Part shown: positions 7,856 to 56,872 of the stretch, in pieces | How positions within the stretch are numbered: the stretch's first letter is position 1 | Layout: each line of letters opens with the position of its first letter | Assembly (NCBI GenBank): GCA_029210745.1 | Contig: JARGFI010000012.1 | Location: forward strand, 1-57,547 | Length of the DNA stretch: 57,547 nucleotides | Reading direction: 5' to 3' | DNA from: Desulfuromonadales bacterium | GTDB lineage: Bacteria > Desulfobacterota > Desulfuromonadia > Desulfuromonadales > JAHYIW01 | Notes under the pieces: model-generated | Told to the model about the DNA's origin: nothing | The model's input: the letters and a program-made list of their open reading frames with translations, nothing else | Database searches by the model: none | Made by a program: the position numbers and the translations under genes

Positions 7856-7951
7856 TGGCGGGAGCAGATGGGAATCGAACCCACCGGGGACGGGATACGC
7901 CCCCCACCGGTTTTGAAGACCGGGCGTGGCACCAGATCACGAACTACTCCC
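7856..7951 (-). tRNA. selC: Selenocysteine tRNA, anticodon TCA
   Basis: A 96-base tRNA with encoded CCA (7856-7858). It has the features that set tRNA-Sec apart: an 8-bp acceptor stem (GGGAGTAG with CTGCTCCC), anticodon TCA (plus-strand TGA at 7914-7916) in loop CTTCAAA, a long variable arm (~20 bases, GGGGGGCGT...CCCGTCCCC), and a GGTTCGATTCC T-loop. It decodes in-frame UGA as selenocysteine with SelB. It lies 11 bases downstream of yedF on the same strand. Its 3' end faces the defence island. Confidence 0.96.
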
Positions 7952-52138: not shown

Positions 52139-52840
52139 TCAGGATGGCACAGCGGTTTTCAGGAAATTTTCAATCCTTTTTTGATCCCGTTCGAGGATAT
52201 TTAAAAACTGCATCCCGACCTCCCGGTACTGGGGGGTATCCTGCGTCGATTGCCAGACGACTTCAGCCAATGTGCACAGTGGCTTGCCATCATCTTTAAG
52301 GTCAAGGATGAGGACGCAGAGATTGGCAACGGTAATCGGCTTTTTGATTGCAAAACGGATCCCCCCCCGGCTGAGATTGACAGCGCAATCGGGGAAAGCG
52401 GGAAGTTTTTCACGGGCGGTTTTGTCGAGAATGTCGACGTTTTTCAACCACTGCTCGTGAAATGTACGGAGGGTCCCCTGTCCTTTTGTGTAGCGTACCC
52501 CGACGGTGACGTCTTTACGTCCATGGGTGCGCCGCTGGAAAGCCTGAAAGTCGCGGTTCAACTCGATCAGCAATGTGTCGTGATTTTCAGTTTTGATGAA
52601 AGTCCCGGTGACGCGGATCCCCATGGTGATGGCGTCGGTCAGTACTTCAAAGGACATCGCCGGTGTAAACGGGTACCCTTCTCCCTCGCGATTGCCGTAA
52701 GGCAGACGCAGGGACAGGCGCATCCCCGAAAAGCTCACGACGTAGGCGGTCAACGCGGCAAAACTGCCCTCAACCACGCCTTCGCCGAGATGGCGTAGCA
52801 GCACCTTCTGTTCCGCCTTAAAGTACTTCCTTAAATCCAT
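52139..52840 (-). CDS. PilZ domain protein
   Basis: A 233-residue protein. Residues ~1-105 form a YcgR-like N-terminal domain; the C-terminal PilZ domain has the basic c-di-GMP motif FQRRTHGRKDV (~105-115) and NLSRGGIRF (~157), where the usual D/N-x-S-x-x-G motif has Asn. PilZ proteins bind cyclic di-GMP and alter motility or surface behaviour. The motif pair is complete enough for binding. It lies just downstream of the multihaem cytochrome gene on the same strand. Confidence 0.85.
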   Translation of the reverse strand: MDLRKYFKAEQKVLLRHLGEGVVEGSFAALTAYVVSFSGMRLSLRLPYGNREGEGYPFTPAMSFEVLTDAITMGIRVTGTFIKTENHDTLLIELNRDFQAFQRRTHGRKDVTVGVRYTKGQGTLRTFHEQWLKNVDILDKTAREKLPAFPDCAVNLSRGGIRFAIKKPITVANLCVLILDLKDDGKPLCTLAEVVWQSTQDTPQYREVGMQFLNILERDQKRIENFLKTAVPS

Positions 52841-52858: not shown

Positions 52859-54319
52859 CTACATTTGATGACAGCTGTCGCAGGCTTCTGCGACGCTGAA
52901 GGCCGTGTTGCCGTCGTGGCACGCGCCGCACGATTTCCCGTTCCCCATGGCGTCCATGCCAACGATATTTTCACCCGCTTGCGGCACAAACAGATCAGGG
53001 TGACATTCGCTGCAACTGTACATGCCGGTATGCACGTCGTGACTGAAGGTCACATTGCCGGTACTGTCTTCGGGGAAGGTGACGTCGCGGGTCGGGTGGC
53101 AACTGGTGCAATCCGTTTTCACGGCAAAGGCGGTGTCACCATCATGACAGGCCCCGCACGATGCGCCCCCCTCCATGTCACTCATCGAAGCCGGATTCTT
53201 CCCTTCCTGCGGCAGGAACAGGCCAGTATGGCAATCGCCGCAGCCATACATGCCGGTGTGAACATCGTGACTGAAGGTCACCGGCCCGGTGGCCTTGACC
53301 GGAAAGACAATTTCTTTAGTCGGGTGGCAACTGGTGCAATCTGATTCGACCCCGAAGGCGGTGCTGCCGTCGTGACAGGCTCCGCACGATTCACCATCGT
53401 TCATCTGTGCCATGGTTTTGGTGTTCATCCCCGCTTTGGGCACAAAGAGTCCTGGATGACATTCACCACAACCGTACATGCCGGTGTGGACGTCGTGGCT
53501 GAAGCCGACCGGACCGGTAGCGGCGACATTGAAGGTAATATTGCGGGTCGGGTGGCAGGTGGTGCAATCGGACTTGACCCCGAAGGCGGTGCTGCCATCA
53601 TGACAGGCGCCGCACGATGCGCCTTTGTTCATCTGTTTCATCGTTTTGGTGTTTTGACCCGCCTGGGGGATAAACACCTTGGGGTGGCATGCGCCGCAGC
53701 CGTACATGCCGGTATGAATATCGTGGCTGAAGCCGACCGGACCGGTAGCGGCGACATTGAAGGTAATATCGCGGGTCGGGTGGCAGGTGGTGCAATCGGA
53801 CTTGACCCCGAAGGCGGTGCTGCCATCATGACAGGCGCCGCACGACGCACCCCCCTCCATCGCTTTCATGGTGGTGGTGTTAGCTCCCTGCTGCGGTTTG
53901 AACAGGTCGGGGTGACACTCGGTACAGCCAAACATGCCCAGATGTACTTCGTGACTGAACATGACGATCCCGGTTGCCGCAACCTGCATGGCGATGTCGC
54001 GGGTTTTATGACACGTCGTGCAATCACCGTCGACAGCGAAGGCCCTGGTTCCGTTGTGACAAACGCCGCACGACTTGCCGTCAGCCATGTCGCTCATGGT
54101 GAACACGGGGTTCTTGCTGACGACGATATTGAATACATCATTGTGGCAGGAGGGGCAGTTTCTGCCGACGTCCTTCGTTTCAAAGTGAAGGTTGTGACTG
54201 AACTCCACCGGGCCGGTGGCCTCCACCGGCATCATGACTTTATCTTCAATCCAGCGAGCATAAACGAACGCAGGGGTTATGAGCAGCAAAAACAGAATCA
54301 GCAGCCAACGCGATGTCAT
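52859..54319 (-). CDS. Exported 18-haem c-type cytochrome of six c7-type triheme repeats
   Basis: A 486-residue cytochrome with a signal peptide (residues ~1-21). I count 18 CXXCH motifs, arranged as six units of ~76 residues, each with three motifs in the order (G)CxxCHP, SCGACHDG, DCTxCHPT and a distal-ligand-type FSHDVHxGMYG segment. This is the c(7)-type triheme repeat known from 'nanowire' cytochromes such as GSU1996 of Geobacter, which has four repeats (12 haems). It should be periplasmic and carry electrons to the outer membrane. GGGAGAG precedes the start. Middle repeats are nearly identical in DNA. Confidence 0.95.
   Translation of the reverse strand: MTSRWLLILFLLLITPAFVYARWIEDKVMMPVEATGPVEFSHNLHFETKDVGRNCPSCHNDVFNIVVSKNPVFTMSDMADGKSCGVCHNGTRAFAVDGDCTTCHKTRDIAMQVAATGIVMFSHEVHLGMFGCTECHPDLFKPQQGANTTTMKAMEGGASCGACHDGSTAFGVKSDCTTCHPTRDITFNVAATGPVGFSHDIHTGMYGCGACHPKVFIPQAGQNTKTMKQMNKGASCGACHDGSTAFGVKSDCTTCHPTRNITFNVAATGPVGFSHDVHTGMYGCGECHPGLFVPKAGMNTKTMAQMNDGESCGACHDGSTAFGVESDCTSCHPTKEIVFPVKATGPVTFSHDVHTGMYGCGDCHTGLFLPQEGKNPASMSDMEGGASCGACHDGDTAFAVKTDCTSCHPTRDVTFPEDSTGNVTFSHDVHTGMYSCSECHPDLFVPQAGENIVGMDAMGNGKSCGACHDGNTAFSVAEACDSCHQM
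53493..53845. repeat. Near-identical 125-base direct repeats in the cytochrome gene
   Basis: 53493-53617 and 53721-53845 differ at one position and are offset by 228 bases (76 codons, one protein repeat). This shows recent duplication or gene conversion between neighbouring triheme units. Confidence 0.9.
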
Positions 54320-54417: not shown

Positions 54418-55320
54418 TCAGTTGTTGTCCTCCGCACGGGTCGTCAGAAGCAGGGCGCCGACAAAATCGGCGATGAACTGGCGGGCGACGCGCCCTGATC
54501 GTCCACCCCGCTGGCGCGCCCAAAGCAGCGCTGCCTGATCGAGTTGTGCAGCGTCCGGGGCAAGATCATACGCCTTGACCCCCTGCCGGACAATGTCCAG
54601 ATAGGTTGATTCATCGATCTGCGGCAAGTGCAGGACGATTCCAAAGCGCTCAACCAGAGAGAGCTTCTCGGCAATGGCTTCCTCCGGGTGAATTTCGTTG
54701 TCGCCACGGTTGTCACTCATCTGTTCGGGAATCAGATGGCGACGGTTGCTGGTGGCATAGACCAGCAGGTTCTCCGGGCGGGTCTCGACGCCCCCTTCAA
54801 GGAGAGATTTCAATTCGCGATAGCTCGAATCGTCGGCATTGAAGGAGAGATCGTCGCAGAACAGAATAAAGAAAAAGGGTTGTTCGCGCACCAGGGCGGC
54901 GATTGCGGGGAGCTGGGCCAGACCATTGCCGGTTACTTCGATCAGCCGCAGTCCGTGTGCGGCGAATTCACCCAGCAGACTTTTCACCGCCGATGACTTG
55001 CCGGTTCCGCGATCGCCCCACAAAAGAATGTTGTTGGCCGGAAATCCGCCGAGGAACTGGCGGGTGTTGCGACGCAGTGCTTCAAGCTGGGGGGTAATGC
55101 CGAACAGTGCGTCCGAAACCGGGATGTCGGGATAGAGCACCGGTGTCAGTTCACCGTGACCGTCGCTACGCCAGCGAAAGGTGCGGACTTCGGCAAACAG
55201 CTCAGGATCGAATGCGTTATCGTCGAGTTTTTCGCCGAGATAGTCTTCCCCCATATCGAGGAGCTGTTCGACCCGTTCAATCAGGTAGGCCCAGTCAATG
55301 TTCAATTCGTCGAGTGTCAT
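54418..55320 (-). CDS. DUF815 family ATPase
   Basis: A 300-residue AAA+ like ATPase: Walker A WGDRGTGKSSAVKSLL (~102), FFILFCDDLSF Walker B (~148), LLVYATSNRRHLIPEQM sensor 1 (~185) and an arginine-rich end. The GDRGTGKSS and TSNRRHL motifs are typical of DUF815 (COG2607), whose function is unknown. ATG 55320 is preferred because GGGAAAG lies upstream; the longer frame begins with a TTG at 55395. Confidence 0.88.
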   Translation of the reverse strand: MTLDELNIDWAYLIERVEQLLDMGEDYLGEKLDDNAFDPELFAEVRTFRWRSDGHGELTPVLYPDIPVSDALFGITPQLEALRRNTRQFLGGFPANNILLWGDRGTGKSSAVKSLLGEFAAHGLRLIEVTGNGLAQLPAIAALVREQPFFFILFCDDLSFNADDSSYRELKSLLEGGVETRPENLLVYATSNRRHLIPEQMSDNRGDNEIHPEEAIAEKLSLVERFGIVLHLPQIDESTYLDIVRQGVKAYDLAPDAAQLDQAALLWARQRGGRSGRVARQFIADFVGALLLTTRAEDNN

Positions 55321-55445
55321 GTTATCTTTCCCGTCTGACGGTATGGTGATGATCTTGAGTTGTCTGTCCCCGTGTATTTTAGCAGTTTTTTTCAACAGAG
55401 TGCAAAACGATTGACACCGTGCTATGTTGCGCTCCGGAGAAACAT

Positions 55446-56573
55446 ATGAAAAACGATCAACTGGACATCTTTGCCGCCACGATCCCAGGGCTGGAAAAGG
55501 TTTGCGCCCGGGAACTCACTGCCCTTGGCGTTGATTTTCCCCGCACCGTCGCTGGCGGGGTAGAATTCTGTGGCGACCTGCGGCACATCTACCTTGCCAA
55601 TCTGTGGTTGCGCAGCGCCGGACGGGTGACGGTGCGCGTCGGCAGTGGGCGTTGCAGTGATTTTCCTGAACTCTTTAAACGTTCCGCGCGCCTGCCGTGG
55701 GGGCGTTTTATCAAGCCGGCAACGCCGGTCAAGGTGCTGGTGACCTGCCATCGTTCGCGCCTTTGGCACGGTGAACGGGTGGCCACCGCAGTTATGGATG
55801 GCATCGATCGGGCGTTGGGACGGAGCCGCCCGGAAAGCGGCCCCTTCACTCAGCAGGTGCTGGTGCGGATCGACACTGACCGCTGTACCTTCTCGGTCGA
55901 CAGCTCTGGTCTCCTGCTCCACCGGCGCGGTTATCGCCAGGCAGCGGTACGCGCTCCGCTGCGCGAAACATTGGCGGCGGGGATTCTCCAGTTGCTGGGC
56001 TGGGACGGCACCACGCCGTTGGTCGACCCCTGTTGCGGCTCGGGCTCTTTCCCCCTTGAAGCGGCGCTGCTCGCCGCGCACCGGGCACCGGGCGCGGCCC
56101 GCACCTTTGCTTTCATGCACTGGCCACGCTACCGTGAAGGGCTTTGGCGATCACTGCTTGCCGAAGCTGCGCGTGGTGAGCGTCCATTGACTGTTGCTCT
56201 GCACGGTGCTGATCGTGATCTTGCCGCGGTGGCCGCTGCCCGTGCTAACGCAGAGCATGCCGGATTGTCGGCAACGGTTACTTTTCACGAACGCGCGATT
56301 GCCGATTGGGATGTCGCCCCGGTCGGTTGCGGGCTGGTGATCGCCAATCCGCCTTACGGCTTGCGACTGGAGCGTCCGGAGACATTGACACCTCTTTATG
56401 CCGAGTTTGGCAACGTGTGCCGACGGGTTTTTCCCGCTTGGCGGGTCGCACTGCTGACGCCCCATCGACAGTTGGCCGATGCGACCGGTTTACCGTTTGT
56501 CCAGGCATTGCCGTTACTCAACGGGGGCAAGCGGGTACAGCTTTTCACGACTTTCAGGATGCCGTCTCGATAA
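55446..56573 (+). CDS. THUMP-containing RNA methyltransferase, RlmL/YpsC-like
   Basis: A 375-residue class I methyltransferase. The N-terminus (IFAATIPGLEKVCARELTALG) and the THUMP region (~45-155) match RlmL/YpsC-type enzymes; the catalytic domain has LVDPCCGSGSFPLEAALLA (~193), GADRDLAAV (~255) and the N2-guanine type motif IANPPYGLRL (~300). It probably forms m2G in 23S rRNA (RlmL target G2445) but the site is inferred. TTGCGCTCCGGAGAAACAT precedes ATG 55446. Confidence 0.87.
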   Translation: MKNDQLDIFAATIPGLEKVCARELTALGVDFPRTVAGGVEFCGDLRHIYLANLWLRSAGRVTVRVGSGRCSDFPELFKRSARLPWGRFIKPATPVKVLVTCHRSRLWHGERVATAVMDGIDRALGRSRPESGPFTQQVLVRIDTDRCTFSVDSSGLLLHRRGYRQAAVRAPLRETLAAGILQLLGWDGTTPLVDPCCGSGSFPLEAALLAAHRAPGAARTFAFMHWPRYREGLWRSLLAEAARGERPLTVALHGADRDLAAVAAARANAEHAGLSATVTFHERAIADWDVAPVGCGLVIANPPYGLRLERPETLTPLYAEFGNVCRRVFPAWRVALLTPHRQLADATGLPFVQALPLLNGGKRVQLFTTFRMPSR

Positions 56574-56581
56574 AATAAGAC

Positions 56582-56610
56582 TTGCAATTCCGGAACGTTT
56601 TCCCTATGAT
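56582..56610 (+). promoter_or_regulatory. Promoter of rpsU
   Basis: TTGCAA (56582-56587), 17-base spacer, TATGAT (56605-56610), 68 bases before the rpsU start. Confidence 0.65.
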
Positions 56611-56677
56611 GCGACGCTGTTTCATGCTCCTCGGGGCTGAAACAGCCAAAAAGACCAGAGAGCGAGGTGATTTACCC

Positions 56678-56872
56678 GTGGAAATTGAAGTTCGCGACAA
56701 TAATGTCGAGAAAGCCATCAAGGTGCTCAAGCGCAAGCTACAGCAGGAGGGCCTGTTTCGTGAAATGAAGCAACGCAAGTTTTACGAGAAGCCCAGCGTC
56801 AAGCGCAAGCGTAAGGAAAAAGAAGCACAACGTCGTCTGCGTAAGAAGCAACGCCTGATGCGCGCCCACTAG
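56678..56872 (+). CDS. rpsU: 30S ribosomal protein S21
   Basis: A 64-residue S21 protein, almost all Lys, Arg and Glu: VEIEVRDNNVEKAIKVLKRK, GLFREMKQRKFYEKP and KRKRKEKEAQRRLRKK are family hallmarks. It binds near the anti-Shine-Dalgarno end of 16S rRNA. GTG 56678 is the start: homologues begin at this Val/Met-Glu-Ile and GAGG lies upstream; the longer frame covers the promoter and leader. Confidence 0.95.
   Translation: MEIEVRDNNVEKAIKVLKRKLQQEGLFREMKQRKFYEKPSVKRKRKEKEAQRRLRKKQRLMRAH

Follow-up and report, generated by a model that had tools for sequence, protein, structure and literature searches.

The closest described system is the dodecahaem cytochrome GSU1996 of Geobacter sulfurreducens, whose structure is PDB 3ov0 (PMC10138318). 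According to the accessible part of that paper, each domain of GSU1996 has one His-Met haem, Met209 (domain C) and Met287 (domain D) serve as axial ligands, the haems are spaced 3-5 A edge to edge, and the molecule is shaped as a crescent, not as a straight line. The same part of the paper describes a capacitor or storage role of GSU1996, and mainly from this example of such chains in general, as a proposal of its authors, and a title in its reference list (ref. 15) speaks of an "extended 12 nm protein". It also gives 27 haems for GSU2210. In the available part of PMC2825233, GSU0592 has 12 motifs and is conserved across all six Geobacter genomes compared, and the available part of PMC4914508 mentions 69 motifs in another Desulfuromonas protein.

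The window, that is, the whole stretch of 57,547 nucleotides that was analysed, comes from the draft genome of a Desulfuromonadales bacterium (G000; 2.72 Mb, 118 contigs). It carries a multihaem cytochrome gene, and the gene, its parts and its neighbours are as follows.

52139..52840, minus strand: PilZ-domain gene, downstream of the cytochrome gene after an 18-nt gap; found at 32 of 51 syntenic loci
52859..54319, minus strand: whole cytochrome gene (486 aa, 18 CXXCH motifs, six triheme units), from open frame and motif count
54257..54319, minus strand: signal-peptide-like N-terminus, aa 1-21 (...FVYA before RWIEDK), cleavage site judged by eye
53996..54238, minus strand: unit 1 (the "cap" unit), aa 28-108, orthologous to the first units of relatives
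53768..53995, minus strand: unit 2, aa 109-184
53540..53767, minus strand: unit 3, aa 185-260
53312..53539, minus strand: unit 4, aa 261-336
53084..53311, minus strand: unit 5, aa 337-412
52862..53083, minus strand: unit 6, aa 413-486, C-terminal, stopping right behind the last haem motif
53138..53365, minus strand: 228-bp segment absent from the ortholog in genome G001, crossover at gene nt 954, from gene alignment
54418..55395, minus strand: DUF815 AAA-ATPase gene, upstream of the cytochrome gene after a 98-nt gap; found at 15 of 51 syntenic loci
55419..56573, plus strand: RlmL-like rRNA methyltransferase gene, divergent; conserved flank on which the synteny counts and the reference tree are based
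56582..56872, plus strand: ribosomal protein S21 gene, conserved flank

The preliminary description had placed here a gene for 18 CXXCH motifs in six units, and its coordinates, its frame and both numbers were borne out by the open frame and the motif count. When the protein was divided at its FSH motifs, we obtained six units of 81, 76, 76, 76, 76, and 74 residues, starting at residues 28, 109, 185, 261, 337, and 413. All 36 cysteines of the protein lie within CXXCH motifs. The 30 histidines consist of the 18 proximal ones and 12 others, exactly two of these others per unit, and outside the six units there is neither His nor Cys. In shuffled versions of the protein (n = 2000), the mean number of CXXCH motifs was 0.15 and the maximum was 3, compared to 18 in the real protein. 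The first Cys is residue 55 and no lipobox Cys is present; it is therefore unlikely that the protein is a lipoprotein. Judging by eye from its signal-like N-terminus, we think that the cytochrome is probably exported through the Sec pathway and probably soluble in the periplasm.

Against NCBIfam TIGR04257 (c(7)-type triheme domain, nanowire_3heme; cut-off 40 bits), the whole protein scores 498 bits, and when the domains are taken separately all six units exceed the cut-off. Pfam PF14522 likewise gives six matches. TIGR04257 has three CXXCH motifs per unit of about 75 residues, and the 18 motifs in six units of the window protein show the same arrangement. In the search of PDB sequences, which matched seven sequences at E values up to 0.1, the best solved structure was 3ov0 (E = 1.6e-71). 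The earlier view of an exported-looking polymer of c7-type triheme units of the GSU1996 kind thus stands, on the basis of the six TIGR04257 units and the signal-like N-terminus.

Each unit of the window protein possesses five His and, at the aligned place, one Met. When residues were counted along the printed chain, Met209 and Met287 of GSU1996 proved to be methionines of TM pairs, and they fall in the same alignment column as the TM methionine that each unit of the window protein carries. In the alignment of the relatives' units, both distal His residues and the axial-type Met were present in 233 of 233 units; geo6, geo8-10 and the row of L110 are left out of this alignment, and G026 is kept in it with one row gapped at the third motif. 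As in GSU1996, the alignment gives one His/Met haem and two bis-His haems to each unit. We therefore predict twelve bis-His and six His/Met haems for the whole protein, one His/Met haem per unit. With all 18 haems bound, the protein would have an estimated mass of about 60 kDa. AlphaFold2 models calculated without haems were of low confidence, both for the full-length protein (pLDDT 51, pTM 0.21) and for units 3-4 (pLDDT 58, pTM 0.36).

On the minus strand, DUF815 comes first, followed after 98 nt by the cytochrome and after a further 18 nt by PilZ. We regarded a locus as syntenic when RlmL or S21 stood beside the cytochrome, and contig ends were scored as absence in the counts of PilZ and DUF815. 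The arrangement of S21, RlmL, optionally DUF815, the cytochrome, and optionally PilZ was found, whole or in part, at 51 of 59 loci. The PilZ protein has RxxxR at residue 104 and NLSRGG, an NxSxxG motif, at residue 155, which we take to be c-di-GMP-binding motifs. A connection of the cytochrome with c-di-GMP via PilZ is a lead, not a result. The neighbours PilZ, DUF815, RlmL and S21 point to no redox partner. Scans for promoters and terminators yielded no convincing site, and no terminator-like site was found in the scan of the minus strand of the gene group. A riboswitch or another RNA element in front of the gene was rejected, since Rfam matched nothing in the window except two tRNA genes elsewhere. 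As a separate observation, the window contains a tRNA-Sec gene (Rfam, 74.3 bits; 7860-7951, minus strand), and the organism probably makes selenoproteins.

In order to clarify the relation among the repeats, we compared neighbouring units in register. The DNA identity was 75% for units 2/3, 80% for units 3/4, 68% for units 4/5, and 62% for units 5/6. For units 1/2, the ungapped value of 37% is too low because of a 5-residue insertion in unit 1, and the aligned proteins are 50% identical; the protein identity of unit 1 with the other five units was 42-53%. Seam 2/3 and seam 3/4, which are 228 nt apart, reached 98% identity in 57-nt windows and share an identical run of 75 nt. Over the rest of the gene from residue 77 onward, 57-nt windows were 53-88% identical at the same lag, and the best stretch of 228 nt, in a shifted register, was 86% identical. 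The preliminary description was thus too strong in claiming near-identical DNA for adjoining units, because the best pair reaches 80% and near-identity is confined to these two seams. A recent duplication, which near-identical units would suggest, was rejected on the measured identities, with the exception of this one short seam. The G001 gene shows the same pattern of seam similarity. Since the pattern is common to both genes, it predates their split.

We next describe the number of units in relatives. The order-level search with residues 1-184 of the window protein matched 114 of 136 genomes, and the 59 loci are the stronger matches; the weaker ones were mostly left out, and L150-L152 were fetched yet uncounted. 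At the 51 syntenic loci the number of units varies, being one at 5 loci, two at 28, three at 10, five at 3, six at 1 (the window), and twelve at 4. Orthologs with one or two units thus make up 33 of the 51, in which G026 is counted as two units and may have more, as it is cut at a contig end. Eight loci are not syntenic. Among them, G092 has four units and is adjoined by DUF815 and PilZ only, G002 (seven units) and G005 (three units) have none of the window's neighbours adjoining, and the other five encode proteins of two units, which match less well and differ at the N-terminus. Some rows were dropped from at least one of the counts: geo8-geo10 (L008-L010), which are apparently the same contigs as in G072, G026 and G070, L006, whose frame is broken, L110, which belongs to a second locus in G008, and G026. 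The G026 homologue is apparently split over the ends of contigs C29 and C36, the repeat array breaking the assembly.

The twelve-unit proteins (G012, G017, G018, and G019) belong to genus g9 and have 965-972 residues, including an upstream open frame, and 36 motifs. The other members of this genus have two or five units, so that the genus holds 2, 5 and 12 units in total. When the four twelve-unit proteins were compared with each other, units at like positions were 87-100% identical and units at unlike positions mostly 40-83%. Like positions are closer than unlike ones, and this indicates that the array was inherited as a whole. On the RlmL tree, the number of units changed at least 13 times, and the twelve-unit forms made one clade with full support. 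An RlmL frame of at least 300 aa was present at 46 of the 51 syntenic loci, and with G026 omitted the tree covers 45; it is a single-gene tree made by a quick method, with several long branches. At the level of the class, the search with residues 1-113 matched 246 of 277 genomes, and seven further class proteins had 9, 9, 9, 6, 6, 4, and 4 units.

Several other multihaem genes were noticed in G000 and in G001, the relative of the same genus. G000 contains three giant multihaem open frames: L031 on C66 (7394-17053; 3220 aa, 49 CXXCH motifs, open at the contig end), L172 on C55 (3-10832; 3610 aa, 54 motifs), and L173 on C72 (194-6844; 2217 aa, 48 motifs). It also contains a single-unit TIGR04257 protein near a contig end (L030 on C26, 3-482; three CXXCH motifs, 71.9 bits), the likely counterpart of which in G001 is at C20. 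G001 has an additional two-unit TIGR04257 frame of 274 aa near a contig end (C41, 14759-15355), and no further match above the cut-off was found in G000. A search of G000 for the MtrB/PioB family gave no match, but the controls were likewise without a match, so that this result carries no weight.

One difference in unit number could be mapped. The ortholog in G001, which belongs to the same genus as G000, has five units. Its gene lacks exactly 228 bp, and the remaining 1233 bp contain 47 mismatches. The best crossover between the two genes lies at nt 954, in codon 318, shortly after the point where units 4 and 5 have their second haem motif, and the flanks of the missing segment are 97% and 95% identical between G000 and G001. 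The segment that is missing in G001 is only 66-72% identical to other registers of the window gene. A fresh duplication would leave a near-identical copy, and we therefore think that the difference probably arose by loss of a 228-bp unit in G001. Thus, the idea in the preliminary description that unit number changes by duplication is correct in part. The number does change among relatives, but the supposed near-identity is no evidence for duplication, and the one mapped event looks like a loss of 228 bp. Outside this segment, the two genes gave a dN of 0.016 and a dS of 0.130, which indicates purifying selection.

The unit tree shows which units move. In this tree, made from 106 of the 233 units and 23 chosen proteins, 22 of 23 first units fall in one starred clade, to which two Geobacter-type proteins with nine units also contribute. 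The middle units of the window protein and of its G001 ortholog form a group (96, starred), and the middle units of the Geobacter-type and g9 proteins mostly cluster by lineage. Placing the last units takes 7 changes on the tree, compared to 2 for the first units. The tree draws on few alignment columns, and of its 103 inner branches 44 are open. In one-unit orthologs, the N-terminus and the unit resemble the first unit by eye. We read these data as suggesting that the first unit is conserved, that the units behind it multiplied separately in the different lineages, and that the last unit is less strictly conserved.

Taken comprehensively, it is likely that the window protein is a string of six c7-type triheme domains, exported by Sec, which works in the periplasm as an electron reservoir and relay chain. 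The frame, the motifs, the domain family, the invariant ligand positions, the synteny, the differing unit numbers and the one mapped 228-bp difference are observations; that the protein is exported to the periplasm and loaded with haem, how its haems are arranged, and that it stores or relays electrons is our inference from them. The CXXCH motifs would covalently hold 18 haems, twelve bis-His and six His/Met. The haems may form a near-continuous line, along which electrons would hop, and, if they are spaced like those of GSU1996, at 3-5 A, the chain could hold up to 18 electrons. Such a protein would serve as reservoir or relay between quinol oxidation at the inner membrane and acceptors at the outer membrane or outside the cell. 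We favor storage or relay over a fixed bridge because the length varies twelvefold at the locus and by one unit within a genus. However, the 33 orthologs with just one or two units count against a reservoir, as they are small for storage.

As to how the length changes, units have probably been gained and lost in frame at the orthologous locus by recombination between repeats, between the conserved first unit and the less conserved last one. We give about an even chance to the fuller form of this view, an "accordion wire". That is, an orthologous locus across the bacterial order would keep its first unit, and less strictly its last, and the middle would change in whole steps of 76 residues by in-frame recombination, with selection adjusting the number of haems, 3-36, to charge capacity or relay range and not to a fixed span. 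If this is true, the twelve-unit forms with 36 haems would be the longest chains of the TIGR04257 unit type in the present analysis. The orthologs with 3, 6, 9, 15, 18 and 36 haem motifs form a natural series in one genomic setting, in which length is the main variable. Such a series would bear on the question of capacitor or wire for periplasmic haem chains, for which the accessible part of PMC10138318 proposes storage. The mapped event, probably a loss of one unit that left the frame intact, may help in the design of haem wires with a desired number of units.

It is unlikely, in our judgement, that the number of units is selectively neutral. In this explanation, any chain that has the first unit can serve as a small carrier, and recombination adds or removes repeats with no effect on function; the frequent one- and two-unit orthologs, and the occurrence of 2, 5 and 12 units within genus g9 alone, are what it would predict. 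However, the twelve-unit arrays are in register in four of four genomes by the identities given above, and the haem ligands are invariant in all of the 233 units, although decay is expected of a neutral array.

The preliminary description had suggested that the protein could bridge a large part of the periplasm. We consider it improbable that the protein is a rigid wire of defined length that connects an inner-membrane oxidase with an outer-membrane conduit across the periplasm. Scaling from GSU1996 (four units, 12 nm) gives a straight chain of six units a length of about 18 nm and one of twelve units about 36 nm, which is a proportion and not a measurement. GSU1996 itself is not straight but crescent-shaped in the account cited above, and no fixed length is kept, with 1, 2, 3, 5, 6 or 12 units at the locus and 5 versus 6 within one genus. 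A fixed membrane-to-membrane bridge is thus unlikely as the general function. An assembly artefact in the repeat number of the window gene is very improbable: the genome is a draft of 118 contigs and the homologous gene of G026 is broken over contig ends, but the window gene lies inside its contig, its units differ (80% in the best neighbouring pair), each unit except the one 228-bp segment has a counterpart in the independent assembly of G001, and four assemblies concur on the twelve-unit form.

In the accessible parts of the literature, including PMC10138318, PMC12977616, PMC2825233, PMC3543383, PMC8235581, PMC4914508, PMC12307469, PMC7762298, PMC12133095 and PMC4519760, with most subscription journals outside the coverage, we found no account of unit-number variation at one syntenic locus, nor of a 36-haem chain of the TIGR04257 type. 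This is weak evidence that both are new.

Finally, we compare the window protein with known cytochromes. OmcS, OmcE and OmcZ also have long haem chains, but these are filaments of many subunits. A filament cytochrome of this kind was rejected for the window protein, as none was among the seven PDB sequences matched at E values up to 0.1. The triheme cytochromes c7 PpcA-E resemble the window units in having three haems per domain. In contrast to the window protein, with six units and one predicted Met-ligated haem in each, they have one domain, in which all haems are bis-His (PMC10138318, accessible part). A PpcA-type single-domain cytochrome was ruled out by the six units and by the presence of only two non-motif His per unit.

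The nine-unit Geobacter-type proteins (L001-L005 and L007, from a separate scan) have 27 motifs, in agreement with the 27 haems of GSU2210. Their unit type is that of the window protein, and L001 and L003 have first units that belong to the clade of the window's first unit; the window's flanking genes were looked for beside these proteins and none was found. Six units with 18 CXXCH motifs, like those of the window protein, occur also in G258 and G259 (f25, a different family of the same class), which were found through weaker first-unit matches and have open frames of 545-551 aa. The window protein is indeed longer than the four-unit, 12-haem proteins, as had been claimed, yet it holds no record in haem number: 27 haems are published (PMC10138318, accessible part), relatives have 27 and 36 motifs, and the Desulfuromonas protein of PMC4914508 has 69.

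GSU1996 shares with the window protein the TIGR04257-type units, the placing of the CXXCH motifs, the distal His, the axial Met, and the monomeric chain of domains. The difference is in number, GSU1996 having four units and 12 haems and the window protein six units and 18 motifs, which makes the latter a longer relative and a different protein. In conclusion, the window protein is a six-unit example of an already known cytochrome type, and the length series at one locus is the new part.
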